DNA from: Ceratodon purpureus
Lineage: Eukaryota; Streptophyta; Bryopsida; Pseudoditrichales; Ditrichaceae
Direction of reading: 5' to 3'
DNA length: 64,000 bases
NCBI GenBank assembly: GCA_014871385.1
Contig: CM026424.1
Coordinates: 3,909,131 to 3,973,130, forward strand
The notes under the pieces were generated by a model. That model was not told the origin of the DNA and searched no databases. It saw only the letters and a program-made list of their open reading frames with translations. The stretch's first letter is position 1; each line of letters opens with the position of its first letter. A program made the translations under genes and the position numbers. Shown piece by piece: positions 6,291-30,159 of the stretch.

Positions 6291-6300
6291 AGCCGTAAGT
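6291..6300. repeat. Target-site duplication, left copy
   Basis: AGCCGTAAGT lies immediately outside the left terminal inverted repeat. The same ten bases in the same orientation sit immediately outside the right terminal repeat at 20,804-20,813. Because the outermost bases can be paired as TCAG/CTGA, the duplication can also be read as 8 bp (GCCGTAAG) with a longer inverted repeat. Lengths of 8-11 bp are normal for Mutator-like elements. Confidence 0.88.
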
Positions 6301-6368
6301 CAGGAATGCTATCATGTGAGCGGTGAGCAGTGAGCAGTGAGCGGTGAGCACTAAATTTTCAATTTTTT
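6301..6368 (+). repeat. Left terminal inverted repeat
   Basis: This end begins CAGGAATGCTATC and contains five tandem heptads of the form NGTGAGC before ending in an AT-rich block. Against the reverse complement of the right end it shows four substitutions, all in the outer 14 bases, plus one extra 7-bp heptad. The heptads are plausible transposase-binding sites by analogy with other transposon ends (inference). Confidence 0.9.
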
Positions 6369-7501
6369 GACCATTTATTTGATATTTTGAGATGATTTTG
6401 CATGACATGGCATATATGGGACCTATGACCGTGGAAGGTGTTTTAGGGTATATTCTAAAAAGAATGGCTTCTAAATTGATAAATGTAGAAATTTACACCT
6501 GGTTCATACCCGAATAAATTGTGATTATTTTTTCATATATCCTATCAATTCCACGCCATGATGACCAAGAGGAAAAAAAAAAAACAAAGGAAAAAAAAGA
6601 AAAGAGAAAAAAATAAATAAATGAAAGAAAGTAAAAATAGATTAAAAATAAATAATGAAAAGGAATATAGGGAAAAAAATAAAAAAAATGAAGGAAAATA
6701 AGAATAAAAGAAACAAATATAAATAAAACAACAACAGAAGAAAAACAACGAAAGAAGAAAAACAACAAATAAATAAATAAATAAATTAAAAAAATAAAAG
6801 ATAAAACATAAAAAGGAATTAACTAAAAAAGAAAGAAAAAAAAAATGAATGAAAACATATAGGAGAGAAAGAAGAAAGATAAAATAAAAAAAATGAAACA
6901 ATTAGGTGAAGAACGGATATACACAACGGCTATTGCACATGAATGTGGCTTCTAGTTTTTTGGCATGACTAATTTTTCATCCAAGTGTTGGATGACTGAT
7001 TTAAAGGTGCAGAATTAATTAACTGAGAGTTAATTACTCTTAAAACCGACTTGGGATTTGTGTTCGAAGGGCACCCCAAGTAATTACTAGGGGTGCCTAA
7101 GTACCCCTAGTAATTACTAGGGGTGCCCAAGTACCCCAAGTAATTACTAGGGGTGCCCAAGTACCCCAAGTAATTACTAGGGGTGCCCAAGTACCCCAAG
7201 TAATTACTAGGGGTTTTGCATAATAGGGCAGGGAAAAATACATGAGAAAGGTTTTAAGAAAATCACATTTTATTGTGATGCCTTCAAGCTGTAACCAAGG
7301 AATGTTCAACTTCTTAAAAAATTAGTACCATCTTCATACTTCAATCATGTATGAAGTCAATTTAAAATATATGGCCAGTAGAGAAATTCACACAAAAGTA
7401 GAGTAAAGTGAGGTTAAGGCAAAATATAAAATCCAAAGCCAAAGCTATCATATAATATATAAGTAGTGAAAACATAACAATATAGAGTAAATATGCAATG
7501 A
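6369..7501. other. Left subterminal region of the transposon
   Basis: No gene is visible. About 6,570-6,900 is a long purine-rich (A/G) low-complexity tract whose reverse complement yields Phe/Leu-rich spurious ORFs. It is followed by about 180 bp of unique sequence, then the 30-bp tandem array at 7,081-7,214, then the 3' flank of the methyltransferase gene. Confidence 0.7.
7081..7214. repeat. 30-bp tandem repeat, four copies plus a partial
   Basis: The unit runs TAATTACTAGGGGTGC followed by a CCAAGTACCCC-type half, repeated at exact 30-bp spacing from 7,081 to 7,200 with a 14-bp partial after it. Copies 2-4 are identical and copy 1 differs at two positions. Each unit contains the palindrome AGTAATTACT when read across the joint and the inverted pair GGGGTGC/GCACCCC at the array edge. 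It lies in the transposon, just beyond the 3' end of the methyltransferase gene. Confidence 0.95.
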
Positions 7502-10500
7502 TCAAGTAGACATCTCGTCATCGCTACAAGTACCAATCCAACCATCATAAGAATCGCTATCACTAGATAATACCACTCTCCCCACTTCTGCAGCTATGTC
7601 AAGATAAATCTCAGCATCACGACAAATGCTATCTCTGTCAGATGAAATAGATGGAGAAGGAGCAGCTAAATAAGCTTGAGCCTGCATCTCTGCATAATGT
7701 GGAAGCTCTAAAGGTCTAACTGGACTCTTAATCTTGCTAAGATGGCGCGAGATAATAGAGCCACCAATGTCATCCTTCAACGCTTTCTTCCGACTGCACA
7801 TGACAATTTCACAGTTTAATAAATATTGAACTAATTTTTTTTAAACAAATAAACTAATGTCAAATGAATGTAGAGACTTACTTACAAGAACGCTTGGGGG
7901 CAGTCTTCCGCTCAGGCTCATCATCTGATTCAATGGCACGTTTCTTCTTCGGAGAAGGCACAGGAATTGGAGCAGACTCAACCTCTTCCGCGCTTGGAAG
8001 AAGAGGCAACAACACCTGCTTGTACAAGGTGGTGTCAGACTCAAAGCCTATGACATGGCGCCGGAGACTCTTCGATGCTCGAATGAAAGCACCTGCAGAC
8101 AAATTGAAGCTCAATTGCATGAGATTAAAGAATAAAAAGAAATACAAAAAACAAAAATCAGAAAACAGAAAGACTAAAAAATACCTGTAGAAGCTGTGAG
8201 ATCCATGACAATGTCATTCTCTACAGTGCAGAGATCAATGAGAGCCTGCAACAGGTTAGAAGTCTTCTCCCTAGGACCTCTGAATGGCAAACCTGTCTCT
8301 GAATTATAAGTCAGAGAATCTGCAGTAATCAAATTAGTACAGTGACCATCAGTGGAGAGCTTGATGCCTTGGGCACCAAGCTCAGCCCTATCATGAAACT
8401 GGAACTTAGACCTTGGAACATCCTCCTCCGCATTCTCCATCTTGATGAAGCACTTGACCATAAAAGTCTTGTGCTCCCGTGGATAACGGTCTGGAATAGT
8501 CAATGGCAGGCCATTGATTGCAAACCACTTGGCCTCCTCCTGAAAGTTAGCTCACTCTGCCCAGGAAAGAAGCTCATTCGAAATGAACTTTGAATCAGGG
8601 TAGAATACAATCAAAGCTCCATCATCCTGCAGAAATTGCATAGCAAACTCAAAATGGGCCTTAATCCACGAAGACTCCATTTTCTTCCCTGCTGAAATCT
8701 TGGGGTGCTTGTTCCACGATGGAATCTCGCCATCCTGCCCTAAACCTGGAACTGGTAAATCCTCTGGAACATCAAAAATGATGAGGTCCACAGCAGCCTC
8801 AGCCTCCTCACCTCCAAAATTCCTAGCCTTGCTACCGAGATGGTCCTTGATCCAATCCTTGATCTTGCTCCAAACCTCAGGCTCATCCCCCTCCGATAAA
8901 GAAGTAAACAAATCCAAAATGCCCATAGGGCAATCATTGATGATCTCAACACTAGTGTCTACCTCATCCAACTGCGAGCATGGAATCGTGTAGATAGTCT
9001 GAGAAGGCATGGGGGTAGAAAAATGAGGCACCTGAGGAACTACAGAAAGTATGGCAGCCTGCATGCTACTCCCTGAAGGAGAAATGCCAACATGAGACAA
9101 CAACTTCTCTGGCCCTTCCTTCAAAACTAACTTGGCCAACTCTCTGTTCCTTGCTGCCACTTCCTTCTTCAGCTTGACTTCCTCCTCCTTCTCCTTCTTC
9201 TTGTCCTCCTTCTCCTTCATCTTTGCCGCTTCCTTAGCCTTCTTCTCAGCCACCTTCTTCTTCTCTCTCTCAGAAAGAGCAGCATCATCACCAACCTGGG
9301 AAGTATCCTCCTCCAAACCCACCATGTTCTCATCCACAAGCTGCTTCATTAAATTCTCACAACTTGCCTTAAGACCTCTCTCTTCCCCGGGGCATTGATC
9401 ATTCTCCTTGAGCTCAAGGTACCAAGGACACTGAAGGAGATGAGGAGCTCCAAAATGTCTCCTCTGATAATCTGTAAAAATGCACTCACTGCTAGAGACA
9501 TCCACCCACTTCTTAAATCGCTGAGGAATATCCTTCTTGTCAATGGCACCCTTAACAACCAACTCCCTCCAGAAATACCTCAAGATAGCCCGCTTCATGG
9601 CATTCTCAGCACCTGCCTGATGGAGAAATGGCTCTTTCTTGGTATAAGTTCCAGCCTTAGGAAAAAAAGGCTTAAAAGCCTTGCCCCACAAAGTGATGGA
9701 ATGAGCCTCAATCCATGAGCCAATATCCTCTACAGGATTAGGTAAATCCTCTGTCCTCAAAACTATAATGTCCTCCTCTACAATCTTGCCATAACGAATG
9801 ACTGCCTCCTCTTCTAACTGCAAAAATAATCAATTTCAAAACAAATAAGAATACAAGAGTTTTGTAAAACTGCAAGAAGAAACAACAGTTCAATGAATTG
9901 CAAGAGCGGCCAAGATTGCAAAAACTTACCCCAGCCCAGAAGGCAGCCTGATCCACCCAAGGCCGGAGAGCTAAATCAGAAGCTGGTTGTGGAGGAAAGT
10001 TGTACTCCTGTCGACTCTCCTTGCTCATGTTCCACCACCTCAACCATCTCTCTTTATGCTTGGCACTTACCTTAGCAGAGGCAATGAGCTGCAATTTCTC
10101 TGGGGTCATCTCTGGCTTTGCATAATAAATGTCAAAGTGGCGAATGATCTGCAAATAAGATTACAAGTACAATTATGTGAGACTGGTAGACTGTTTTAAT
10201 ATTCAAGCTACTGAATGAAATCAATTTACAAACAAATACATGCATTAACTTAAACATGAATATAGACCTGAACATTAACATTTAATTGAAGGCATCCATT
10301 AACATTCACTCATTGCATGCTATACAACATTGAAGAATTAACAATAAATGTGAAACCCACTGCCTGCAATGACCAGGTAGCATGCAAGACTCGGCTTGAC
10401 TAGACCTGAACCAGTGTTCAAAGTGAGCAAGAAAACAGAATTTATATCAGGCTCCAGCAATGAACATCAGCAAGAAATACTAATCTCACATAAGGAAACG

Positions 10501-13500
10501 ATGCAGCACAACGCCTATCCTTCATGTGGAACAATATGACAACTCGCTGCTCACACAAACGCTTGAAAACATTGTCAAATATTGAAAGCTACAGCATGCA
10601 CTTAAACAAAGAAACGATAGAGCCTCAAGCTAAAGAAACTACACCAATCGGCCTCCAAATGAAATTGAGCAAAGTAAAACTATTCCACAAAGAAAGGCGA
10701 ACAGCAACGAGAAAGACCTGTTAAGCCGTAGGAAAGAGAAACAGCAGTGAAGAGATTGATAAGTAGAGCACAGTTCACAAAAGTGACCGCCCCGCACCGC
10801 ACTAATAAATCAAAACAATCTCGAGCGCCGACACAGACGCCGCTCTTCTAATACAACTATCACATAAAGGAGATTACAAACACGACGAAGTCGAACAAGC
10901 GAGACAGGCGACAATTAAGAAACTCGGAACAAACAGTGCACCTCACTGAATGAAGGCAATCACACGGAGTACAGACGTCGCAACTCCAGTCGAAACCAAA
11001 GGCAAACTATGACAGCAACGATCGACGAGTATATATGAACTGTGAAGTCGAACTGAAGGACTCAGGATTGAGGAGAGAAATGCAGCACACTACCGTGCAA
11101 GTGTGCTACACACACATTGCTGGAGCACACAAACATTATAAAAGCAAAGCTCGAATGCACTTGGGAAAACAGAATGCACTTGGGAAAGCAGGCAGCATGA
11201 AACCCTGGGCATGACTGGTGTCACTGGACCTGAGCCGGCGCCTAAGCACGAGCAAGAAAACAAAAATTATATCAAGCTCCAGCAATTGCTGGAGCACACA
11301 AACAGCATAAAAGCAAAGCAAGAATCCTTGGCCGAGGCACCCCTCGGATCCGAGAGGTGGACCAAGGGTGTCCTCGGCACTTGAAAAAAACTGAAAAAGA
11401 ATCCAAAATAGATTCCTCTGAAGATCCTGCTCTCGGATCCGAGAGGGGAATATTCCAGAATCCCCTCTCTCGGCTGCACAAGCTTTGGGGGAGACAGAAG
11501 AATTTAAAGCTTCAGGGACCTTCACGAGCTGATTGAGCACACTCAATATAAAGCCAATGTTCAATGACTCGGCCAAGGTATAAAAAATACAACAATTCGC
11601 TGCCTAGATTGAGTAGGCAGCTTGCAGCACCCGGCTATCACCCGGCCAGATGACTAAACATTAATGTCGAACTAAGCCACATCATAAAAATTAAAGCAAG
11701 TTGTAGCATGTGCTGGAGCACATGAACGGCACAAAACCAATGCAAACAGACTCTGTTGAGGCACCCCTCGGATCCGAGAGGTGGACCAGGGGTGTCCTCG
11801 GCACTTGAAAAAAAAATTATAGGGACTTCAAAATTCAGCAGGCAGCAACCGTAGGACTCCAAAATCGAAGACTTATATCCCCGACGGGCGTGAAGCTAGC
11901 CTTGGCTCGGGAAAACCATACGAAGGTCAAGCAAGTCAAATACACCCACTACCTGCATGTAGTAGGCAGGAATCAAACACACTGGTCGAAGGAGCTCAAC
12001 TTACAACAGTAATGCACACATCAAGTATAAGTGAAGTCTGTAGCAAAGCTCGAGCAACTGCTTGAGCCCAAATTTTTAAAAAAAAGCGTCTCCCATTGCC
12101 TCAACCGAGGCACCCCTCGGATCCGAGAGGTGGACCAGGGGTGTCCTCGGCAGTCACATTAAATCAAAAACTAAGCAAAAATTCGTGCCTCATTAACAAG
12201 CATGGCTCTGAAATTTATCAAAAAAGGAACAAAAAAAGATGCCCTACGAGATCCTCCTCTCGGATCCGAGGACAGAATATTCGTGATCACCAATACCAAG
12301 CTACGATGGAATCTGATTAATTTTAAAAAGGGACAAGCTCTGCAGCTGGTGGGGCACAAAAACACATACCACCGACGGGCTTGAAGCCAGCCCTGGCTCG
12401 GGAAAACCATACGAAGGTCATCAATACAAACACACCCACTATGTGCATGCAGCAGGCAGCAACCAGACACACTGGCTCGAAGGAGCTCAGCTCACAACAG
12501 TAATGCACACATCAAGTATAAGTGAAGTCTGTAGCAAAGCTCGAGCAACTACTTGAGCCCAAATTTAAAAAAAAAGCGTCTCCCATTGCCTCAACCGAGG
12601 CACCCCTCGGATCCGAGAGGTGGACCAGGGGTGTCCTCGGCAGTCACAAAAACGACGTACCTCTTTCAAAAAACCTTCTCCATTGCTCGGGTTGGCTATA
12701 GCAATAAATCTATCCAAATAGGTAGAAAGCGAAGTCTTCTTCACATCTACTGCCTTAGCAGCGATCGCCTTCAGTTCAGATGCACTTCCTGGCCTTTCTT
12801 CTCCAGTGCCTGTTATGAGTGTGTCTCTATAGCCTCGAATAGCATCCTCCTGGGCCGTTGAAATCTCCCTCTTCAATAACAAATATGAAATGTTAATTCT
12901 TTAGCACTCGAAAGCTTTTAAACAAAAAAGTGTTTAATAGTAGGAGTAGCTTACCTCGTATAAGAAGTTGATGAATGCATCATTCGTGAGGTGAAACCAT
13001 TTTTTGTTTTTAGTCCGTGCCCTCTCAAGTATGCTGGCTTGTAAATCCTCCTCTTTCACAAGACCCTTGAGTTGGTCAAAATCCAACAAACCTAGTTGTT
13101 GGACACGCTTCACCTCATGCGTCCAATGCTGTTCAACGTGGTCCACTTGATTTTTTCTGAATCATTTTACTGAATTAGAAAACACAAAATCACAGACATT
13201 TATGTAAAATAACGAAGTATTCAGACATCCTAATGAAGGTTTAAGAATAAATGTTAGAGGTCGTATCAAAGAAAAAAACATGCCAAACCATGAGATGTTC
13301 AATCATGCTGTGACTCCAGCGTCATGTTAGAGCTCACGTTTCTAAAAACAAAAAATATTGCAGATGCCAAGGCACCCCTCGGATCCGAGACATGGACCGG
13401 GGGTGCCGAGGGTAATTACTTTTTTGCTAAAACTGAGCAATATATTAAAGCCTCGGCTGGAGGTGTGTTCCCTGCAACCAGCACGAGCTGGTCACAGACA

Positions 13501-15925
13501 TGGCCTACACAGTATCATTGTTACTCAAATGACATAAAAATTAAATAGCCGTAACTCCAGCTTCACGCTGGAGCTTTTGATTTAAACAAAGCACAACCAA
13601 AATCTCACGCTAATTACTTGGACCAAAGAATAAAACACCTCCAAGGGAGGTAGCATACTGCAAGCACGTGGAACAGATCACAGACATGAGCCACAGTGCT
13701 CAACCAAAACTCCACTCACAGAAATGTATAAAATGCCGGATCAATAAATTTATGAAAGGCTGCACTTACTTATTCCAATCGGTCATGGTGTGCAAAAGCA
13801 TATTTGCGTTTGCAGGTGTGACATTGATAATAACCGATCGAACAGCAACATGAAATGACGCATCATTCTTCCGAATGGTGTTGATAATCTCTGACCAAGC
13901 AATGTGGCGATGATTTCCATCCCACACATAGAAGTATTTGTTGGAGTACTTCTGGAAGGCTGGATCTGCCGCTAATCTGTGCTCAAATTCTTTATCCTCC
14001 TTCTGCCATAGCTCAGACCACGATGCTCTGTCTGCTTCAGAAACACTACACTCCTCCATCCTGAAACTCCTGAGAGAAAGGTAGAAGCATGATGACGCTC
14101 TCTTGTATCCACGTGAGAACTCGGCCTTCAGCTTATGAATGTCATTCTTCAATGGCTCTCTGACGTCCTTCATTGGAATCATCCTACAGAGCGGTACATC
14201 AATCTCAACACCAGGCATGTCAAGCGCGCCTTGTAAAGCGACATGTGAATTGCCTATCACTGCTCTGCGCAGTTGGTCCTCAATCTCGGCCAAGCCCCCA
14301 TCATCGTGATCCATGCTGCAAGACAGACTGTTGACCTCCGTTGCAGGTTCTTCAGAGCTCATCTGGCGACAAAGCACATAACCGAAATTTGAGTATCCAT
14401 TGGGACTAAATGCTGCTCAACACAAAAAGGAACATACTGCTGAAATTGGATGTAGTGGACCTTGGCACGCATTGATCGAACCTTCGACATGGTGAATTCC
14501 AACATTCCACGCACTTTAAACCAGTACCCATCAGTAGGTTCTAGGTCGGCTTGCTTTCATGCATATTCACACACTTAGAAGTTTATTGGGATTGATGGCC
14601 TTGGACTTAGCTAATATGCATCAAGACTGCTGAAACGAATCACTCCCATAGAGCGGCAGACTGCGCTCATATCCTAACCCTTAAGTTGAACTCCATTTAC
14701 GAATTCCAGACATAAAGAGCAAGCTCTGTTCAGCAGAAATTACCAGGTTGTTTAAGCGTACCTCAATGTTCTGGTGTTCGGACAATTCAGTTTCTCGAAC
14801 GCGGTCAATGGCCTCGAAAAGCTGCAAGCACCTTTCTGAATGTGAGACCCTGAATGCCTTGACTAATGCAAATTGACCCAACATACAAACGATATCTGGA
14901 CCATGATTGATTCCTCTTCAACTTACCTCTTCGGCCCTCGTGAAATCAGTCGATACTATCTCCAAGGGCACCGATTCTGAAACCTCGTCTGTCGCCTCTA
15001 GTACCTCCAACTGGACTCCGTCTTGGAGAATCTCCGACCCAAGTACCTGCACCCAATTTTAGGGTTTATATTGGATGACCCATTAATCATGCGCAGGGAA
15101 TTCGAAGTTGCACTCTTGACAAAACAGTCTACAGCTCATACAGTCCACACAAAACAATTTGCAAGATAAGCAAGTACAAATAGTCCAAGCAAAACAACAA
15201 GGGATTAGACTGATTACACTTACAGTTACAGACGGCTCGATGGTGCAATAATCGACTGTGGGATCCCCAGCATCATGTGCAGCGCCTCCTCCCTCTCCCG
15301 ACGGCAACCTCTCGTGCAAACCCTCCTTCGCAGGTGACCAAAAAGTCAACCCAGAGTACTCGAGAATTTGATTATATCACCAAGACCGTCCATTAAATAT
15401 CTAACATTCTCTTAGACCAAGAGAACAAAATTCTACCCCGCAGAATCCATTAAAAAAAATAACGCAATTATATTTCAAATTACGTTCACTCAATGATTTA
15501 CACAAAGCCTGGAGCATTGATTCTGTGAATGCATAATGAGGTTTCTGTCAAATAAATGTGCCTTGCCTCTCAATGTCCCTGACCATTAGACTAAAAACAC
15601 AAAATTCTACTCCGCAGAATCCACTAAAAAAAATAATGCAATATTTCAAATTACGTTCACTTAGTGAATTACACGAAGCAAACAGCATGGTATGGTATAC
15701 CTGGCATATGGTGGCCAATGCTTTGATTTTGAGGTGCTTAGGATCATCTGAACTATAATCCACTTCTGCAATACGAGCAAGAGCGTCTTTCTCCTTCCGT
15801 CTCTTCTGGGCCGCCACCTGCTTCGAACTACTAAAACCTGAACCTCGCTTTCTCCCTCTACCTCTAGTCGTACATGATCTAGGAGCCGTCGGCACTCTTG
15901 AGCTTGGCTCTTCCTCTTCCCTCAT
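7502..15925 (-). CDS. ParB-like domain / beta-class DNA methyltransferase fusion, one in-frame stop
   Basis: Eleven exons (minus strand, 5' to 3'): 15925-15701, 15325-15224, 15046-14927, 14857-14762, 14362-13770, 13156-12955, 12870-12661, 10148-9930, 9817-8185, 8092-7882, 7793-7502. They have GT-AG borders and compatible phases, total 3,903 nt, about 1,300 aa. The start is the first ATG after an in-frame stop. Domains: a basic N-terminus; a ParB/sulfiredoxin-like fold at about residues 235-380 with WDGNHRHIAW (328-337); a Lys/Glu coiled coil at about 771-827; and a permuted methyltransferase. In that domain the motif-IV position reads DVPE (938-941), followed by a KTSNLL motif-X-like segment, motif I as DLTASTGG from 1128, and GFESDTTLY. 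Beta-class N4/N6 enzymes normally have DPPY/W in motif IV, so activity is doubtful. A TGA at 8,554-8,552 (residue 1011) interrupts exon 9. Exon 7 to 8 spans a 2.5-kb repeat-filled intron, so two separate genes remain possible. Confidence 0.72.
11332..11376. repeat. Type-A compound hairpin repeat, copy 1
   Basis: A 45-bp unit opens with CCGAGGCACCCCT and closes with a near inverse of it. The perfect palindrome CTCGGATCCGAG (11,343-11,354) lies near its left arm. The same unit recurs at 11,757-11,801, 12,105-12,150, 12,595-12,640 and, diverged, 13,367-13,412. This copy has one A for G in the right arm. Confidence 0.9.
11421..11455. repeat. Type-B palindrome repeat, copy 1
   Basis: CTCGGATCCGAG (11,432-11,443) sits in a different context from type A: a GATCCT-type left flank and GAATATTC on the right. 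It shares this context with 12,247-12,282 and 20,421-20,496. A second short inverted pair (GAGAGGGGA and TCCCCTCTC) overlaps its right side. Confidence 0.85.
11757..11801. repeat. Type-A compound hairpin repeat, copy 2
   Basis: This copy has the same 45-bp layout as the one at 11,332, with the palindrome core at 11,767-11,778 and TGAGG for CCGAGG at its left edge. Confidence 0.9.
11881..12157. repeat. Segmental duplication inside the intron, copy 1
   Basis: About 277 bp, beginning CCGACGGGC, is repeated at 12,372-12,647 with an offset of 490-491 bp. The two copies differ at scattered positions. Each contains one type-A hairpin unit at its end, so part of the palindrome expansion came from this duplication. 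Confidence 0.9.
12105..12150. repeat. Type-A compound hairpin repeat, copy 3
   Basis: The palindrome core is at 12,116-12,127. The unit is identical over its core to the copy at 12,595 and lies at the end of the duplicated segment. Confidence 0.92.
12247..12282. repeat. Type-B palindrome repeat, copy 2
   Basis: The palindrome core is at 12,259-12,270, with GAATATTC to its right and ATCCTCCT to its left, matching the other type-B sites. Confidence 0.85.
12372..12647. repeat. Segmental duplication inside the intron, copy 2
   Basis: This is the partner of 11,881-12,157. Its right end lies 14 bp from the donor side of the exon ending at 12,661. Confidence 0.9.
12595..12640. repeat. Type-A compound hairpin repeat, copy 4
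   Basis: The palindrome core is at 12,606-12,617. The unit lies just inside the intron after the exon that ends at 12,661. Confidence 0.92.
13367..13412. repeat. Type-A compound hairpin repeat, copy 5 (diverged)
   Basis: The palindrome core is intact at 13,378-13,389 while the flanks differ (ATGGACC for GTGGACC, and CCAAGG at the left edge). It lies in the intron between exons 13156-12955 and 14362-13770. Confidence 0.88.
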
Positions 15926-16625
15926 AGGTCTCAGTAACGCTATCCCGTTAACATAATTCTAACTAAGTATAATGCTTTGAAATCAGGAAGAACTCACTCC
16001 AGTTATATAGCAATCTTTTATACTAATAACCGTTCATACATATAATACATGCATGAGCATTCTGTGATTGCCAATGTTTGTGTCAGTATCTTCGTTATAT
16101 ATAATAGTAGTATATATTTAAATTGTTAGGTGCAAACCATTTTAGGGTGGCCACCAAATCTATGTAAAGGGAATGACATGATCTGATGTTGAAATTTGTG
16201 AACACCAATTTCGTGGGCTGGTATGAAATCTCTCCTTAATATAAAGTAAGTTAAGGAACTCTGCCTCGAAACAAAATAACTATTCAAATTAAAGTTGCCC
16301 TGATCACGCTCACATTGACGGCTAATTGTTATAAATGTATTGGTGTACATCTGTGACGGTTCAATTTCACTGCTGAATAATATAATAGTATTAGCTAAAA
16401 ATGATGTGGTTGGTAGTCTCAGCCGCCTTAGCATTTTAGTTTGTCAAATACATTCGAACTTAAATTAAGCTATACAGATCATAGTGATTTCGCCAGTACA
16501 CTCTATTCAATTTTAGAGTATGTTAGTTGTCGCACCTAACTAATCACTAACAACTATATAATCTCTACAACCTGGTACACACCAAGCACATCTTCTTATA
16601 CTCTACTTGCACAAGCTCTCCTCTA
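15926..16625. promoter_or_regulatory. Shared divergent promoter region of the transposon
   Basis: The methyltransferase gene starts leftward at 15,925 and the transposase rightward at 16,626, leaving 700 bp between the start codons. A TATA-like TATATAA at 16,555-16,561 lies about 65 bp before the transposase ATG. AT-rich TATA-like runs around 16,015-16,120 could serve the leftward gene. No other gene is evident here. Confidence 0.5.
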
Positions 16626-19600
16626 ATGCATGATTGTACTTCTTCTATCTTCTATAGTACACTTAGAATGGCCTCTCTACGGTCTCATGATGGAGGTATT
16701 CCATTTGTGATGTCTGTAGGTCCAGACAATAAGGTAGTTGTGGAGGAGCGATTACTTAGCCTGAGGTTTGGGTTTAGAGCTGGGACTATTTACGTGGAAG
16801 AAGAGGTATTTGATGATGATGGTGAGATTCTTGAGTGTGTATTTCAAGTGAAGGATAGTACACCCGATGATTACGTCTGGACTCTTAGCACTGGAACTTT
16901 CAAGGTTTATGGGTTATCAGATGCACAGATGTCTGAGTCTACTGTTCTCTTGACCCCTCCTCCTTCCACGTCAACAGTTCAAGTTCCTGGTCTAGCATCT
17001 ATTAAAATAGAACCCAGTGACAACTCAGTACATTTGTTGAGTGACTCGGATGATGACATTCACAGTGAGATCAAGCTAGGAGACACTAGGTCAAATCCAT
17101 TTCGTAGTCGTGGATCCCAAGACTCAGGACGTCCATCTCGACAGGGTAGTCGTTCTAGTATATCTGCGTCATTGTCTACAGGGCGTCCACCTATTCACCC
17201 TGCTTCGAAAAAAAACAGGAGTATTATGTTTTCCATCAGAATGACAGCATCACGAAGGGGCTCCCGCTCAGAATTGTCGAAGATTGATTTCGACACTATT
17301 GAACATGAACAAGTGAAGTATTTACCGCCAATTTACGATGGAGACAAGATTTTCGAGCTGCCCCCTGTACCAGAAGGAGTTCCAAATCCATTCGGAGGTG
17401 GAATGGACAGGATGAGCAAGCAGTATGATGGCCACACCTGGTGCAAGACCATGACCACAAACATCAAGAACGAGTATGGCCTCACATATCGTAAGTCATC
17501 CTGTACTGGACACTTACAATGTCCCAACATGAGTTGTGATTACATCTGCAGGAATAATGGGATGGTAAATAGCACTGAGTGGTCAGGCGTAGCTTTAGTA
17601 CCATTCTCTGTGGGAGGCTCCTCCACAGAAAAATCTACTTTAGCATGCAAAGTATGTCAGACACCTCCTACTTGTCTAGCATTGTGCGACGCTAGGATCT
17701 ATCATGTGTCATCTTCAGACAATGATATGACCCGTGCGGCGATTCATTTAGGACGTCATAGGCATCCTGTATCTCAAGGCAGATGTCAAGATTCTATGGA
17801 TATCATGTTTGACTGCATAGCTAAGGAGGTTCAGAGGACACCTAATGCCAAAAACTCTGCTATTGTTCTAGCGGCCAGCAAGCAGTACCTTGCCGATGCT
17901 CTGATCCGTCCTACTGCTGGAGGCAGTCATCTTCGCGGAGCATCTATGGACTAGTTTGAGACTCTATCTTCACCGAATATACGCAATTTTGTTTCTGGAT
18001 CGAAGAGGTTTTTCCGTCAAGGAAGAGGAGTCACATATAGCATCCTGGAGCTGAAGGATTACTCAAACTTTGATTTCATCCACCGTAATCAATTCCCTGG
18101 ACAGAATGAAGGCAAGGTGTTTCTGTTCAAGATGTCCACTGATCGTCCAGGAAGCGGTGTGGATCTGGTGAAGCGCATGCAGCCTGGAGGTGATCTTCAA
18201 GACTGCTGGATCATGTTCGACCATGTTAGGCGTGTAGCTGACTGGACCACTATGGCATGCCACGCTTATGACAGTAAGTACTGTAAAGTTATGACAATTG
18301 CCCTTTGTGACATGCAATCCGAAGATGCTGCTGCTCAGGAGTTATTTTGGCTCCAACTCAATGAAGTTATGCGCAAGAACGGCCTTGAAAATACAAATTT
18401 CAAAGGATTCATGGCTGACAATGCTGGAGCCAACTGGCACGCTGTTCGGAAGGTGTATGGGAACGGAGACCCCAATGATCCTATGGAAGAACGGGAGCGC
18501 ACTTGTCTTTTCCACTGGACGAAGTGCCTTCAGAGGGCAACTTCTTGGAACATCTTGCCAAGCTTTCAAGACCAACACAAAGGTTTGTGCAAATTTTGGA
18601 AGGACACAAAGACCCAGGAGGAAGCAGAAGCGCAGTACAACGTCATCCGCGGATGGTGGCTTTCGTCAGGCGCTACAACTGAAGAAGGAAGGCGTCATCT
18701 AAATGATTGGATGGTTTTCTGGCACTATCGGTATAGACAATGGGGAGGATCAATGCAGCTTGTAAGTTCATTCATCTCTAAACCTTTCATCAAGTATAAG
18801 TATACCTGGGCTTTTATCTATAATCCTGAAAATGACATGATTTATTTTATTGTATTTCCCAGGATCTTACCCTTGACGAGAGAGCCGACATGCCTTTCTG
18901 CAACCTTGCGGAAACCGTGCATAACAGATGGCTTCAACAATCAGGAAATACAATGACATGTTTGTACGAGGCAACAGTGGATGATATGATCCGAGCATTC
19001 ATGCAGAACACAAGTTACCGGTCTTGGCTGAAGGGAGGAAAAGGCGGTAAAGGTCCGGACAGAGCAGAATTTCGTTTACGCCACGCTCAACGCTCTGGTG
19101 ACCCCAAGTTGATTGCTGAGGCAGTTAATTCCTACCCGGGAGCCGAGGATTTACTGACGAAGAAAGGAGGCTTGGAAGGTGCAGAGATCTTTGGATCTAC
19201 GAAACGGAAGTTAGATTTGCCGCCTCGTTCGAGTCATGACTCGCATCGCTATGATACAGTGAATTATTCCATTCCTCGTGATGGCCCAAGATCCACCAGA
19301 GCTCGCATTGAGAAGGCTCTTTCTCAACCTGATTCCGGTGTTGAACAGACTACTTCAGTGCAGGAGACAGATTGCGACCCGTCTAAGTGGCACATTGCTA
19401 GACTGTCCGGCAAGTCTAACCAAAAATACCAAGCAATGCAGGCTCATACAAATGAGAAGTGCGATACCCGAGTGCGCCGAGGTACACATGGTACGCCTGC
19501 TCCTACCTATGTAGGGCTGAAGAAGGAGTTCAGAACCGATCGCCATATTTCTACTGACTTTTGGTTTTGCGCGGATGACATTAATAGATGTGTGAAGGGC

Positions 19601-20233
19601 ACAAAGAAGTCGTTTGTGATTGATTGGCCATCTATTCCGCAGACCTGGCCTGTGAAAAGGGGGACGAACCTGACCATCAAAGAGATTTTGGCTTTTGAAG
19701 AGGCCGACTTCCAACTCCAACAACGTGGAGTACTATCACCTCGTCGTCAGTTCCAGGTTTCTGCTAATATGCCGCTTCCAAGGAGTCATTTCCCGGTTCC
19801 TGTTGATCCGGATACACACCCGACGACTCGAAACGGATATGCCATCAGGAGAAGTTCTGACGCTCCTACCTCCGACCACCGCAACAAGTGGAGCAGCGCG
19901 GGTCTCATGAACAACTATTGGATTACAAATGTCACATCGATTCCGTATCCAGGATTTGGCTGCGTCATCTCCTTGAAGAGTCCAAGTGAAACGATATATT
20001 GTATCACCATCGGGGACTTCCCTGGATGTACTTGCCCCGACTTCATGAAAATGACTTCGGAAACCCTTGGCAAAAGAGGACAGTAGAAGTACTGCAAGCA
20101 TGTTTATTATATCTTTCGCTATCTATGTGAAATGGATTACAAGGTTGATACTTTTATGTACGCCCCTAGCTTCAGCTTCAACGAAGTTATGCGTGTTCTG
20201 GAGATGGCCAAAGTTGCTGAACCGCTTCAGTAG
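16626..20233 (+). CDS. MULE-like transposase with SWIM zinc finger, two in-frame stops
   Basis: Two exons, 16,626-18,761 and 18,863-20,233, give about 1,168 codons; the intron is 101 bp with GTAAGT and a CCCAG acceptor. An acidic N-terminal region and a Ser/Arg-rich stretch (about 150-200) precede a Cys/His-rich zinc-finger-like segment (about 280-400, ending HLGRHRHP). The catalytic region shows candidate DDE residues Asp532 (FDHV), Asp598 (MADNAGANW) and Glu729 (NLAETVHNRW). Between the last two is a CLFHWTKC segment like that of Mutator transposases. The C-terminus has CxC (1101, 1103), then CKH (1123-1125), the SWIM pattern CxCx(n)CxH. TAG codons at 17,952-17,954 (residue 443) and 20,084-20,086 (residue 1120, inside the SWIM finger) interrupt an otherwise open frame. 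A second ATG at 16,668 could be the true start. It would cut and paste the element in the nucleus. Confidence 0.78.
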
Positions 20234-20742
20234 TTTATTATGGTTAGACTATGAAATTAAATGACCAATACAGTTCAAGAATACATTTTATGAATAGCGG
20301 AATTGATTTGTTTTGGCTTTCTAATGGATTTGGAATCCGCAGAACATAAATAAAGGTCACTATTTATTTATATATTGTCCACCTCTCGAATGTGTTTGTG
20401 GTAAAATGAACGCAAAAAAAGAATCTTCCAAGGTACGAAGGAATATTCTCCTCTCGGATCCGAGAGGCGAATATTCCTTCGTACCTTGGAAGATTCTTCT
20501 CTCGTATCCGCAACCACAAAAGTGCAATAAAAAAAAAATTAAAAAAAATTGGATATACATTTTGTATGAGACTTAAACAGTAAGCTTTTCCCTCCAACCA
20601 TTCACATTTGACTGATTCCACGGTTATAGGGTCTACTTTATTTGCATTCATATATTCCAACGAAGTGTCCTAAATTGCTCATCATTGTTTGATTGCTCTC
20701 AAAAAAATTCAAAAAAAAAACTAAAAATTCAAATTTTTACCT
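20234..20742. other. Right subterminal region of the transposon
   Basis: This is the 3' flank of the transposase gene. It contains the 76-bp palindrome at 20,421-20,496 and A-rich runs before the right inverted repeat. No ORF has recognisable content. Confidence 0.6.
20421..20496. repeat. 76-bp near-perfect palindrome (type-B copy 3)
   Basis: Two 38-nt arms, beginning GAATCTTCCAAGGTACGAAG, fold back on each other with one mismatch pair around the centre CTCGGATCCGAG (20,453-20,464). It lies about 190 bp after the transposase stop. In RNA it would form a very stable hairpin, so it could act as a 3'-end or small-RNA-generating structure. In DNA it could be a protein-binding or cruciform site. 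Both roles are inference. Confidence 0.93.
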
Positions 20743-20803
20743 AAAAAATTGAAAATTTAGTGCTCACCGCTCACTGCTCACCGCTCACAAGATAGCGTCG
20801 CTG
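20743..20803 (-). repeat. Right terminal inverted repeat
   Basis: Read on the minus strand from 20,803 it begins CAGCGACGCTATC and contains four NGTGAGC heptads and the same AT-rich inner block as the left end. It is 7 bp shorter because it has one heptad fewer. Confidence 0.9.
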
Positions 20804-20813
20804 AGCCGTAAGT
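20804..20813. repeat. Target-site duplication, right copy
   Basis: AGCCGTAAGT is identical to 6,291-6,300. Joining the flanks across the element predicts the pre-insertion site. Confidence 0.88.
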
Positions 20814-22156
20814 TGTTGCTTGATGCAATTCTTTTTCTACTTGTATATGCTCATACTCCTATTTTGAACCCTATATTTTAGTTTCAACTTTCTCCAAGTT
20901 TTGTATTTGTAGGTGAACCTTAAGGTCCCCCACGTCTTGTTCTTTCAATAAAATCATTAATTATAGTTTTTGAATTTATCAATTAATCCTAATTTGATTG
21001 AGTCAACATTACATTAAAATTCCACAAAATTCCTGAGTGGCATTTGTGACTTTTCAGAATGTGAGTCACAAATGCCACACTGGACACTTTATAGGTCGTA
21101 TGAGGCTAAAAACTACAAAGGCATGTTCCAAACTCACCTAAAAACAAGAATTTGAAGAGCCTCATATCAAATTTTCTACCAAAAATGGTTTTTTTGGCCC
21201 TCAAAAAACCAGTTACCCTTTTTCCAACAAACAAAAAAAACTTTTTTCCACCTTTAAACATTATCATCTCTCAATTGGTAAGGAATTTGAATCCAACATT
21301 TGACATACATATGCACATACAAGTTAGCTACAAGATCTTACGGTTGCACATACTCAAAAATACATCATAAATTAAAAATTTGCACCTTGCATTTAAAGAG
21401 GGCAGTTTGGAGGGTTTTTTGCAATTTTGAGAGCATTCGACATTAGGGATTAATGTATGTGCTCCAACGGAATTAAACCAATTTGAATCACCACGCCATC
21501 CTACCATCCAACCACAGCGTACATGTAAAGTGGGCCTAAGACTTGGAAGGCCCACACAAGATGATACCATTCTACCACCTCTCCAATAAGGATGTCAAAT
21601 TCAACACACTTGTGTGTCAAAACTGATTTTCCACGTCATTAATAAGAGAAGCGAAACAAATCACCAGATGATATGTGACACTGTTCATAAAATTTTGAAT
21701 CACTTTAAGATATAAAATACTATCCCACACCTCATCATGTTGACTTCACCAAATACACACCCAAGTTGCAGCTCCGGAGCAACAACAACATCGACTCCAG
21801 AAGGGATTAGACATCAGCTTCTACAGTACAGGAACGAGTTGTTGCCGCCTGGAGAGTCCACATGAGCACTAAAAATGAATGGGAAGCTCGCTCACCAGTG
21901 CCGCGCTCGGAGCGAAGCGCGTCCTGCAGACTTCGCTGCACAATTCCAGGTGCATTCATGCATATTCGGCGACTTTCGGCGATCAGTTCCGGTGCCCTCC
22001 ACCGGTTTTCGGCACAGACTCACGGTGACGCGACGACGCTGGTTTTGATGATTGCCAGGTGCGGAGTCGCGCAGAGGTCGACTGTTGCCAGGTGAGGGTC
22101 ATCGTCGATCACTGGTGCGGCCAGGTGAGGAGAGACTGGAGGACTTGGGTCCAGCG
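20814..22156. other. Intergenic DNA and GDSL-gene promoter
   Basis: AT-rich sequence with no supported ORF gives way after about 21,750 to a more GC-rich stretch that should hold the promoter and 5' UTR of the downstream gene. The transposon's right end lies 1.35 kb from that gene's ATG. Confidence 0.5.
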
Positions 22157-23418
22157 ATGGCGAAGGGGGCGATGGGGGTGGAGTTCTGGATTGGTTTGAT
22201 GGTCTGCAGTGCATTGGCAGTGATGCAAGTGAATGCCGCGGGTAGTGGCTTCCCGGTGCCGTCGTACTACGTGTTTGGTGATGCGTACTTCGATGCTGGC
22301 AACAATAATTTTATTCGTAATGCGGTGCCGAAGGCGAACTACAAGCCTTACGGGATGACGTTCTTCAAGGGTGTGCCGACGGGGCGCTTCTGCAACGGGA
22401 GGATCTTCGCCGATCTGCTCGCGGCGGTCATGAAACTGCCACTGGCACCGCCGTCGCTGTCGACCACCTTGACGTTGGATCAGAAGGGGGTTTGCGTGAA
22501 CTACGCGTCTGGCGGGGCTGCCATTCTTCGGTCCTCTAGCGTTGCGTACGGTTGGAAGAATCCGCCCAGCTTCGACCAGCAGGTGACTTTGTTCGAGACA
22601 CACGCCAATACCGTGATCTATGAGTATGGAATCGACAACGCGCTGCTCATCCTCAATGACGCCATCTACCAGATCTCGTTTGGCACCATCGACGTCCTGG
22701 CGTACTTCACCCAGCCCCACCAAATTGAGTCCATTCAGATTTTTTTGGAGTCTCTCGCGACGGAGTACCGCAGATTGGTCGACAGGTTGTATACTATCAA
22801 CGCGCGGAAGGTGGTCGTCTTCGGCGTGGGCCCGATACAGAACTCTCCAGTCGCGAAGCTCATGATGTCGAAGATGACACCGGCAGGTAGGTCAACAATG
22901 TACATTGTAATGTTTGTTAAGTACCTGTGTAATATTGAGGCGAGCTACCTATGTGATACTTAGGCGATGGTTTCTGTGATACCTGATTTGCAGAGTCAAA
23001 GAAGTTCTGCAAGGATGTCGACACGGCAGTGCAGCAGTTGAACCAAAAGTTGAGGCTGATGGTGACCGAGTTCAACAACGACAACGCTGTGGGTCAGCCA
23101 CACGGAAGTTTGCAGCTCGTTTTTGCCGATGTGTACGGCGCTGTCTCGGCCATCACTAAAAAGCCAGGCGCATATGGGTTGACGGATGTGACGAATGCGT
23201 GTTGTGGAGCTGGCAAGTTTGGAGCAGAGATTCCGTGCGGGCATAGGAATTCCAAGGTTTGCAAGAATGTGAGCAAGTCTCTGTATTGGAATGACATGCA
23301 ATTCACCGAAGCTGCCAACCAGATTCTGTTCAAGCTCTTCTTCGATGGCTCGAGCTTCGTAAAGCCCCTTAGTGTGAAGAGTTTGGCGAAGTTGCTCATC
23401 CCTGGAGTGCCATACTAG
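22157..23418 (+). CDS. GDSL esterase/lipase-like protein lacking catalytic residues
   Basis: Two exons, 22,157-22,886 and 22,994-23,418, encode 384 aa, the usual length for plant GDSL/SGNH proteins. The chosen ATG gives a hydrophobic signal peptide (about residues 8-27), implying secretion. Block I reads FGDAYFDAGNN (40-50) where the family has GDS(L): the nucleophile Ser is Ala43. Block II keeps Gly111 and NYASGGA. Block III reads GTID (176-179) where the family has GxND. Block V reads WNDMQFT (342-348) where the family has WDxxHPT: Asp is Asn343 and His is Gln346. So Ser, Asn, Asp and His of the active site are all replaced while the fold-defining sequence is intact and the frame is open. 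It is probably a catalytically dead cell-wall or extracellular GDSL paralogue, possibly a ligand-binding protein. An in-frame ATG upstream at 22,052 would bury the signal peptide and is less likely. Confidence 0.9.
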
Positions 23419-27239: not shown

Positions 27240-30159
27240 CTTGAGCACCTGAAAAGACAGATGACAGCATAAGCTCAGCAACCAGAATCCTAGAAACATT
27301 TCAAAAATATTTCAAACCTCAACTGCTAAAGCTATCAGATATAACTACCATAGCCTTTTCAAATTCTTCCTGCAACCGAGCGAGCGTGAAACAGCCATCA
27401 CTGCTACTTCAAACCCCCACAGCCAGGAATATCCCCTTTGTCTACACGAACAAAGACGATGCAATTGTCCAAACAGATTGCTTCTGCACTGCACCACAAA
27501 AGCTGCATAGCAGAGGCAACATCAACATCAGCTAACGCCATCTCAACAACCAAGAGACCCGCCACCAGAGGAATATTCTCTGCTGAATTTGGCAAAGCCC
27601 TCCCGATCGCCACCTACAGAGCAACTCTCAAATCCTAACCACGATCAGACCGAAATGCACACCATCTTCACCGATCCTCAACATCAATGCATCACTCTCC
27701 CTACCCCGATCGCATGTGCAAACCCAAACAACTCGATCAACAGCAGATCGTTCTCCAAAACTCCCCTCAACCACTTGAAGAGCTTCAACCAACAACATCA
27801 CACACACATACACATCGACCGCGATCAGCCCATGAATTGAACTAACGATGGTGAATTCTCGGTCAAAGCCGAACACCAACCTGAACTCCAAAGCTCCCTG
27901 AGGCGATTGCACAGACAGAGAGAGAGAGAGGGGGAGAGAGGGAGAGAGGGAGAAGAGGAAGGGAGAGGGAATGCAGAGGTTGGTGAAGGACAGATGAGGG
28001 GTATATGTAACCATGAAGAGTGGGTGAACACAAACTTACCCAAGTCGAAACTACAACACTGCTCACAAGTACAAGTCGCCGCGACACTTCGTCAAGTCAG
28101 GGCTCCCCTCTCTCTCTCTCCAGGGCAAGGTAGATGTCCCGCCTGCGCAAGCCTCGGCTGTTTCGGAAGAAACCTCGTGTGTCCGGCCTGTGACATGTGA
28201 CCCACCTCAGCATCAAACCTCTCGAGATGGCAGCAGCTTCACTGTTGCAAAGTTTTCCACTTCGAGTCTAATAAAAGTGGAAGAAATGATCACGTCGCCG
28301 CGACGGCAGCATCTACTGTTGCCTGGGAATTTTCGCATCAATTCCAATTTCCAGGGCACCTTGAGATGTGTTTGATCATCATCTGTAGCCCTAGGAACCT
28401 GTTTGCTGCGTAAATCTATGTTAAGCTTGCGATTATTTCAGGTGGAAGGGTGTCTCGTTTCCATGGCGGCCCCAGTTGCGTGACCCACCTTCAACTGCTG
28501 ATGTGGCGGATGACTTGACGCAGTTGGATGACCCGAGTGAAGCGCAAACTTCGAAGATCTTCGCATGCGAGTCGTCTTAGACTAAGTTGTTCCTTCGTTG
28601 TTGGGGTTTTCTGGAGGGAGGGAGATCGCTCGGGTATGGCGGATGAGTGCCTTAACTGCATGTGAGGGCGCTGTACATGGCGCTGGTATGATTCCTTCTT
28701 ATGTTTTCTGCGTTTCTGGGTTCGCTTTCATCTTCGGTTTTGCTTTGGGGAGGGGAGAGGAGAGGGCAATAGCATGTTATGGTTTTTCAGTTAGCAATGT
28801 GATCGGTGATCGGGTTTGTGCTCGAGTTCGGGAGCGTTTTTTTGGTTTGTGGGTGCGTTTGCTCGGAGGTTTTTGGGGTTGGGAAGGGAGTGGATTTTTG
28901 TTTGTGGGAGTTTTCTGGGAATGTGGGAGGCAGTGATGGTTTCTGAGAGCTCTGCGTTGTGAAGGGACTCGGGACGCGGTTAGAGCCTGCTTTTGTGGTC
29001 TTTGGTATCTTCTTAAGAAACTAAAACCCTAATTGATAGTCATCCTGAATGGTTAACCTTTGTAGGAAATTTGAAGCGGATGGTTGTCGATTTATTCCAG
29101 ATTGGCTTTCGGTCTGAGTTGTTGCTGCGTTCGCCAAATTAGGTCATGCTGGATGTGTGAATCTTATTTGCTGCAGAGTTTTGTTCAGGATCGGTTGTAG
29201 AGGATAGTTTGGCTGCGGGGTCTACACTTGATGTTTTGTGGTGTAATTGTTTGATTGAGATATTCATGTGAATGATTACAACATTTACAGACGGCAAGCA
29301 CAGAAAACATGAATTTTGTGAAGGGACTCGGTTGTGTGTCCATTGGTCATCTTTAATACTGGTTACGATTGAGTTCCAACCAGATTCTGTCGCTTCTGTG
29401 GGGTATCCCAGTGGTTCTCTTGCGATGATTAGTATGGCCAGGCAATTTTAACTCCCCCTCGATGTGCCAACATGAGAATATCGCCCATAACTGGGAAGGG
29501 TCTAGTTTATGTCTAGTTTACTAGTGGGTTGTGTGAGCTGGTGGTTCCCAATTCTGTTCTGCTTTTGCTGCAATTTCATAATGAGGTATTTACTATGAAA
29601 CATTAAATTTAGACGTAAATATTGATATCAAATGGAATATGTGCCATCGCTACGGCCACTGTGCGCAGAATTCATTTTTCTTTTCTTTTTGCTTTCATCT
29701 TCAGTCTTTTTACTTTTCACCTCTACTTTAATAACACTATATCTATATTTATATATATGTGTATTACATAAAAGAGAATATTTGACTAGTGCTGGTCTAT
29801 ATATCTTCTCAGCTTTGAAACACCATGACATAGTTGTTCGTTTGTTTGCTGCAATTGCAGGTTCACATACCTCGGGGCTCATCTGTGACCGCTTTTCCCT
29901 AGTGTATGTTGTGAGTGCAGTATGTGCTGAGTTCACATCTTTCCCTTGCGCGGCCTCCCATAAAACTTGGTATTCAGGAGCTTGACATCAAAATGACCTA
30001 TTGGTCGCTCCGCACGATATCCAGGCTGCAATAGTTTCTGGAGCTGCGTTTTGTTTTATGGTTCATCTAGGAGAACTGATGGGCGTCTCAAATTAGCTTC
30101 GGTGTTATCTTCTCGTCAAACCCTTGACAGTGAAGATTGCTGAAAGCAGTTGTGGAAGT
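27240..30159. promoter_or_regulatory. 2.9-kb divergent promoter region, transaldolase / SPPL1-like
   Basis: No coding gene is supported. A GA/CT-rich tract lies at 27,905-27,960. The interval 28,600-30,100 is T/G-rich, with candidate splice sites that could mark 5' UTR exons of the rightward gene. The two flanking genes are transcribed away from each other. Confidence 0.5.

Follow-up and report, generated by a model that had tools for sequence, protein, structure and literature searches.

A two-gene Mutator-like transposon family of the moss Ceratodon purpureus with a methyltransferase-type second gene and a candidate recognition palindrome

Only in a few cases is it understood at the molecular level how transposons evade silencing by DNA methylation; the plant example is VANC of Arabidopsis. 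The subject of this study is a 14,503-bp element, positions 6301-20803 of a 64,000-nucleotide stretch of the genome of the moss Ceratodon purpureus (GenBank assembly GCA_014871385.1, contig CM026424.1, positions 3,909,131 to 3,973,130 of the forward strand; the whole stretch is called the window). This element is a single, decayed member of a two-gene Mutator-like transposon family, which represents a second candidate anti-silencing system, with a protein of bacterial type and a candidate 12-bp target site, the palindrome CTCGGATCCGAG. We estimate a probability of roughly 55% that the second protein reads CTCGGATCCGAG, thereby recognizes members of its family, and alters their chromatin or DNA-modification state.

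According to the available sections of the Ectocarpus study (PMC12477816), the 21.5-kb element Sola1-1_Ec32 of this brown alga carries an opposite-strand gene for a 1104-residue protein with N4/N6 methyltransferase and ParB-like domains. Similar accessory genes are described there in green and red algal transposons, with giant EnSpm elements for red algae. The moss element resembles Sola1-1_Ec32 in being a giant DNA transposon with an N4/N6 methyltransferase-type gene opposite the transposase strand. However, the algal transposase is of the Sola1 type, whereas the moss element is Mutator-like with 10-bp duplications, and its ParB resemblance is at the level of a motif. The same sections mention no cognate palindrome array for the algal element.

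VANDAL elements of Arabidopsis contain short motifs clustered in tandem repeats within introns and other non-coding parts, and these repeats turn over fast (available sections of PMC5735166 and PMC10398659). The moss family likewise combines a Mutator-like element and an accessory gene with clustered short non-coding motifs and a rapid turnover of repeats. In contrast to the degenerate ends of VANDAL, the moss element has clear inverted ends of 61-68 bp. The motifs of VANC vary between families, whereas one 12-bp palindrome is common to two genomes here while its surroundings change. These sections do not describe VANC as a methyltransferase.

Groups of Mutator-like elements (MULEs) have terminal inverted repeats of 14 to 640 bp or, in some cases, none (available sections of PMC6446971). 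The moss element shares with MuDR/Mu and other two-gene MULEs described there a DDE transposase, which in MULEs often has a SWIM finger, duplications of 8-11 bp, long inverted ends and, as in some groups, an antisense second open reading frame. It differs in the size of its full-length copies (14.5-16.5 kb), in the methyltransferase-type second gene and in the lack of a Pfam MULE match. Bryophytes, mosses and Physcomitrium are unmentioned in the main text of that paper. Retrotransposons of dinoflagellates and charophytes also carry a DNA methyltransferase of their own (PMC5890265), but these are retroelements with C5-type enzymes, whereas the moss element is a DNA transposon with an N4/N6-type domain.

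No report of such an accessory gene in a land-plant or Mutator-like transposon was found in a literature search that left most subscription papers outside. Accessory genes of the ParB-methyltransferase kind are known from algae, in other superfamilies; the part concerning the CTCGGATCCGAG palindrome is new.

The element and its copies in the moss genome

The boundaries of the element and the repeats near them are the following.

6291-6300: left copy of the target-site duplication AGCCGTAAGT (sequence)
6301-6368 (approximate), plus strand: left terminal inverted repeat with five tandem GTGAGC units (same ends in six further copies of the moss genome)
7073-7214: 30-bp repeat in 4.7 copies, holding the palindrome CCCC(A/T)AGTAATTACTAGGGG (repeat analysis)
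20743-20803 (approximate), minus strand: right terminal inverted repeat with four GTGAGC units (alignment with the left end)
20804-20813: right copy of AGCCGTAAGT (sequence)

The sequence AGCCGTAAGT is a perfect 10-bp repeat immediately outside the inverted ends and has no further occurrence on either strand of the window. The terminal repeats are built from 7-bp tandem units GTGAGC(A/G), and their lengths of 68 and 61 bp differ because the left end has five units and the right end four. Apart from this unit, their alignment contains four mismatches in the outer 15 bp. A chance origin of the inverted ends is rejected, since their local alignment score is 91 and the maximum among 3000 random pairs from the window is 35. 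The end core GTGAGCGGTGAGCAGTGAGC, allowing three mismatches, matches five places in the window, all of them within the two ends (0.00 expected). These results bear out a sequence-only reading of the window, which had pointed to matching inverted termini of 61-68 bp and an identical flanking 10-bp repeat at these positions.

Searches of the moss's own genome covered assembly G000, which comprises 151 contigs with a total of 362.5 Mb. Allowing two mismatches, GTGAGCGGTGAGCAGTGAGC has 2252 matches there, with overlapping tandem units counted separately, versus six for a reversed control. Among 100 end-core places listed, all on contigs C1-C4, are 33 facing pairs less than 40 kb apart. A search with the relative P0069 scored at least 79 methyltransferase exons, the window's included, from 3849 first-look candidates; these exon counts are lower bounds. 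Among the matches listed, 18 of the 33 end pairs enclose one of these exons, with sizes from 4.1 to 35.8 kb.

Seven copies were delimited, and they have the same ends and seven different 10-bp duplications. Besides the window copy, they are E1 on contig C9 (15,487 bp, duplication TTCGAAGTGC), E2 on C4 (16,456 bp, GTTTCGCTTG) and four shorter copies, L059 (GCACAATACC), L060 (ATAGTAAGTG), L061 (GTGTGGAACC) and L062 (GTAACAGCTC). L059 is an internal deletion of a window-type element, and L060-L062 retain only parts of both genes. Both genes, in divergent orientation, are present in all three full-length delimited copies, that is in the window, E1 and E2. Twelve further copies of the second gene were sampled down the lower ranking, with 4 kb read at each, and nine of them lie beside a divergent transposase gene of the family. 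At another of these loci, L043 (G000:C8:10243122-10247121), a transposase of a second lineage lies near the second-gene copy.

Because the copies share their ends, differ in their 10-bp duplications and enclose both genes, the element transposes as a whole unit, as the sequence-only reading had claimed; it belongs to a high-copy cut-and-paste family of the moss. The recurrence by which that reading proposed to check itself is supplied by three full-length copies that share the ends, differ in their duplications and hold both genes, and by four shorter copies with these ends and further duplications. The two-gene arrangement that it pointed to recurs in the full-length and most of the sampled copies. 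The window copy is not autonomous because of in-frame stops in both genes (TAG at 17952, TAG at 20084 and TGA at 8552-8554). Copies without internal stops exist for the transposase and for the methyltransferase exon.

Transposase and second-gene product

The transposase gene occupies 16668-20233 on the plus strand and is interrupted by one intron (18762-18862); the start codon at 16668 is our choice.

16668-18761, plus strand: exon 1, RNase H-like DDE core preceded by a WRKY/GCM-like zinc-finger region; in-frame TAG at 17952 (sequence, predicted fold)
18863-20233, plus strand: exon 2, candidate catalytic E (NLAE), SWIM-type CxC...CxH motif, in-frame TAG at 20084 (sequence)

An intron at the same position is present in L001. 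This locus is from the metagenome bin G001, labelled Synechococcales cyanobacterium, in which contigs C58, C80 and C134 (L001-L005) carry intron-bearing genes of the transposon family; for this reason the three contigs are probably moss contamination of the bin.

The predicted fold of the transposase has its best match in ISCth4, which we take to be a bacterial insertion sequence of the IS256 type. The match ranks above other entries at a sequence identity of 14%. The best Foldseek E-value of the model is 1.1e-3, and none is 0.001 or lower. The model includes a zinc-finger region resembling the DNA-binding WRKY and GCM domains. The Pfam families MULE, Transposase_mut and SWIM give no match up to an E-value of 10 in the joined window transposase; among 58 relatives, Transposase_mut matches two (best 0.034) and SWIM one (0.17). 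A SWIM-type CxC..CxH motif is visible in the window transposase and in P0003 and P0059, and the residues follow the order D-D-(C..H)-E, then a SWIM-type tail. The reading of the plus-strand protein as a DDE transposase, Mutator-like and related to IS256, is well supported by the predicted fold.

The family shares with MULEs a 10-bp duplication in 7/7 copies (MULE range 8-11 bp), long inverted ends and a predicted IS256/Mutator-related RNase H-like fold. The element is filed as Mutator-like, outside any named MULE clade, because the MULE and Transposase_mut profiles fail to recognise its transposase. This agrees with the possibility, raised by the sequence-only reading, of an undescribed MULE-related lineage, related to Mutator by predicted fold and lacking a Pfam MULE match. 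The silence of the profiles, their faint matches in few of the 58 relatives and the Foldseek value would also suit a DDE superfamily separate from Mutator. We consider this improbable, since ISCth4 is the top fold match and ranks above the next entries, and the duplications, long inverted ends, residue order and SWIM-type tail are as in MULEs (available sections of PMC6446971). The question is one of classification, and either answer is compatible with the proposed role of the second protein.

The second gene runs on the minus strand, divergently from the transposase gene, from about 15925 to 7502.

15701-15925, minus strand: probable first coding exon, basic (inference; exons between 15701 and 14362 uncertain)
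13770-14362, minus strand: exon e6, ParB-like motif YVWDGNHRHIAW, at motif level only (alignment)
12955-13156, minus strand: exon e7 (frame and splice sites)
12661-12870, minus strand: exon e8 (frame and splice sites)
10149-12660, minus strand: 2.5-kb intron with duplicated segments and six CTCGGATCCGAG palindromes (repeat analysis)
9930-10148, minus strand: exon e9 (frame and splice sites)
8185-9817, minus strand: exon e10, N4/N6 DNA methyltransferase domain, motif IV D-V-P-E, in-frame TGA at 8552-8554 (Pfam, alignment)
7882-8092, minus strand: exon e11, end of the methyltransferase domain (frame and splice sites, Pfam)
7502-7793, minus strand: last exon, e12 (frame and splice sites)

The seven exons between 14362 and 7502 form one reading frame with six GT-AG introns and one in-frame stop, and their joined product has at least 1119 residues. 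The 11 exons of the sequence-only reading are about right in number; the seven downstream exons read through, and those upstream of 14362 are plausible. Where that reading saw no obvious capture of a host gene, the product can now be given an identity, a DNA methyltransferase domain. The single relative that bears a name is M758_9G115400 of Ceratodon purpureus, with 73% identity over the ParB-like part.

The product of e10 and e11 matches Pfam N6_N4_Mtase (PF01555) with an E-value of 1.2e-10 and 42.2 bits (cut-off 26.7), and no other family exceeds its cut-off in the Pfam search of the second gene. The domain also matches DNA methyltransferases in PHROG (1.6e-8), and a single-sequence search of the PDB with the methyltransferase exon finds DpnA (0.0022) and CcrM. 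The motif I/X region is conserved among relatives. In each of nine proteins aligned, motif IV is D-[VI]-P-E, and the longer form DxPExLPVPG is matched by 29/30 copies in the moss genome. Motif IV of N4/N6 DNA methyltransferases is usually of the DPPY type, with an aromatic residue in the known enzymes. The matches assign the domain to the N4/N6 (beta-class) methyltransferase fold, with no claim of normal activity. Since the conserved form of motif IV is D-[VI]-P-E instead of a DPPY-type sequence, the domain may belong either to an enzyme with altered chemistry or to a pseudo-enzyme that binds S-adenosylmethionine or DNA.

The product of exon e6 contains a conserved YVWDGNHRHIAW around DGNHR among aligned relatives, which we take to resemble the ParB box. 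ParB homology of the exon is not established, and "ParB-like" here denotes the motif; PHROGs contain no ParB match for this part. A ParB_N protein in bin G001 (L057:484-1815, minus strand) runs, by eye, into a degenerate methyltransferase-like part. Judged in the same way, it appears to be a bacterial protein of a make similar to that of the moss second gene.

A donor of the second gene was not found, because matches in the phage and plasmid collections are distant. The methyltransferase domain reaches E-values of 3-4 among the best 20 of 212 phage matches and at best 1e-4 among the best 10 of 14 plasmid matches; P0076 has one phage match, with an E-value of 0.8. In searches of viral contigs, neither the transposase nor the methyltransferase exon nor the ParB-like exon had a confirmed relative.

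Purifying selection has acted on both genes. For exon e10, the mean nonsynonymous divergence (dN) is 0.044, the mean synonymous divergence (dS) 0.249 and dN/dS 0.178 over 30 copies. The set consists of the window and the 29 top-ranked others among the 79, a choice biased to good copies (L018, the window itself, was dropped). Across the aligned 544 codons, 23 of the 30 are free of stops. Transposase values of dN and dS are 0.036/0.339 for window and E1, 0.016/0.137 for window and E2, and 0.008/0.139 for E2 and L042; in comparisons with L001, dN is 0.25-0.26 and dS is saturated. For the ParB-like exon, dN and dS are 0.101/0.566 between window and E2, and dN is 0.230 with saturated dS between window and E1. 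This exon (13770-14362) changes more quickly than the methyltransferase exon within the same copies: protein identities of the window to E1 and E2 are 68-80% and about 88-91%, respectively. The difference hints at mosaic exchange, or at a higher rate of change in this half of the protein.

The palindrome and a possible role of the second protein

The 12-bp palindrome CTCGGATCCGAG contains GATC and is found by exact match at the following positions of the window.

11343-11354, 11432-11443, 11767-11778, 12116-12127, 12259-12270 and 12606-12617: in the 2.5-kb intron
13378-13389: in the intron between e6 and e7
20453-20464: centre about 345 bp from the right end

All eight occurrences lie inside the element, seven of them in second-gene introns, and the window contains no form with one or two mismatches; at up to two mismatches, 0.85 occurrences are expected. 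The seven delimited copies contain 57 exact occurrences (window 8, E1 16, E2 9, L059 1, L060 8, L061 8 and L062 7), with one variant at one mismatch, two at two and 16 at three. The occurrences have 42 distinct 60-bp contexts. CTCGGATCCGAG is the only 12-mer common to the interiors of all seven copies, and the next most frequent 12-bp palindrome occurs four times. In 5/7 copies a CTCGGATCCGAG is centred about 345-356 bp from the same end; the sites of L060-L062 lie mostly in mid-element. In the window, the end-near CTCGGATCCGAG is surrounded by a near-perfect 80-bp palindrome (20419-20498) with arms that are 98% complementary.

Contig C58 of bin G001 (L005) contains three exact CTCGGATCCGAG 5' of the ParB-like exon, in a repeat unlike the contexts in the host. 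That CTCGGATCCGAG is kept nearly exact in unrelated contexts, and in two genomes, suggests that some protein reads it. The origin of CTCGGATCCGAG as a by-product of tandem duplication is rejected, as it leaves the 42 contexts and the G001 copies unexplained, though duplication clearly multiplies the sites. The 30-bp repeat array near the left end, with its core AGTAATTACT, is perhaps a second recognition array; the core occurs five times in the window array (7073-7214), four times in E2, five times in L059 and not in E1 or L060-L062.

In the proposed mechanism, the second-gene protein, with its methyltransferase fold and possible ParB-like domain, would bind the CTCGGATCCGAG arrays in the introns and near one end. 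Binding would lead to recognition of family members in cis and in trans, and the bound protein would remove or block host silencing, as VANC does for VANDAL, or write a mark of its own. We take the VANC system as the best model for what the second gene does, and lean towards recognition and anti-silencing over ordinary base methylation. The second-gene product is preferred as the reader of CTCGGATCCGAG because its gene accompanies the arrays, and other repeats are available to the transposase at the ends. A broader version, which we hold tentatively and at somewhat less than even odds, sees here a bacterial-type self-recognition system in land-plant transposons. A ParB-like, methyltransferase-type protein would pair with a parS-like CTCGGATCCGAG that stays identical between moss species while the flanking DNA turns over. 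This would enable the element to distinguish itself from the host and to evade or overrule silencing, and deletion copies that keep the sites would profit in trans.

Several results weigh against a role of the second protein as reader of CTCGGATCCGAG. Its motif IV departs from the DPPY-type active-site pattern, and the PDB matches of a nine-relative profile built on the methyltransferase exon include no methyltransferase and are mostly coiled or low-complexity. For the ParB-like exon, Pfam finds no ParB in 11 aligned rows (window exon included), and a PDB profile search gives no match. The predicted structure of this part is unusable (pLDDT 42.5), and a comparison of its profile to that of four bacterial sequences retrieved with ParB_N (one below the cut-off) reaches a probability of 0.2%, the aligned stretch being the DGxHR box. 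Outside the delimited copies, variants of the palindrome are slightly more common. The 12 sampled 4-kb stretches contain nine exact CTCGGATCCGAG, two with one mismatch and two with two, and 30 second-gene loci, which partly overlap the delimited copies, contain 56 exact and three one-mismatch forms. The palindromes of E1 are partly tandem duplicates (a 457-bp unit repeated 6.8 times), and because some within-element copies arose in this way, the 57 sites are not 57 independent events. Another palindrome, GACAATATTGTC, likewise occurs three times in the G001 contigs, in partly overlapping loci. The pairing of the genes has exceptions as well: at L043 the transposase is 43-49% identical and in the other relative orientation, and at L044 and L051 the 4 kb read contain none.

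CTCGGATCCGAG could equally be a site of the transposase. The arrays would then be bound by, for example, its WRKY/GCM-like region and act as transposition enhancers, with the second gene as an integration helper like mudrB, which has this function in MuDR, instead of a chromatin or methylation factor. Such a role would account for the palindrome at a similar distance from the same end in most copies, for the zinc-finger region of the transposase model and for L060, L061 and L062, which have lost most of their coding sequence yet keep seven or eight sites. It is harder to reconcile with L059, which has proper ends and a duplication but a single CTCGGATCCGAG, and with the window copy, in which seven of the eight palindromes are kilobases away from either end, within introns of the other gene. 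The tandem GTGAGC units at the ends already suit transposase binding, which in addition needs no methyltransferase-fold domain, and as a whole this explanation appears unlikely.

Self-marking is what the authors of the Ectocarpus study propose for similar algal genes (available sections of PMC12477816). In the moss, an active N4-cytosine or N6-adenine methyltransferase could mark element DNA, possibly at the GATC within CTCGGATCCGAG, and so time transposition or distinguish self. The significant N6_N4_Mtase match and the conserved motif I/X region would fit such an enzyme. The D-[VI]-P-E of motif IV, invariant in the nine proteins and nearly so in the 30 copies, lacks the aromatic residue of known enzymes and makes ordinary activity distinctly doubtful. 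Should the protein indeed write N4-methylcytosine or N6-methyladenine, these marks, whose presence in land plants is disputed, would have a candidate source in it. The second gene might, finally, be a captured passenger without function for the element, as plant Mutator-like elements often capture genes and seven of the 30 compared e10 copies contain a stop. This is scarcely tenable: the contigs of the other genome hold the same exons with the same boundaries alongside the transposase, relatives retain the same motifs, and passenger status is rejected on the dN/dS of 0.178 over the 30 copies. A second protein that reads CTCGGATCCGAG and acts on family members is the reading we prefer.

In the window, the element sits near a host gene: an open frame resembling, by eye, a GDSL-type lipase/esterase (22052-22963, plus strand) starts about 1.2 kb to its right. 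Farther along, an open frame at 30097-31023 (plus strand) contains, by eye, membrane stretches like those of signal peptide peptidase.

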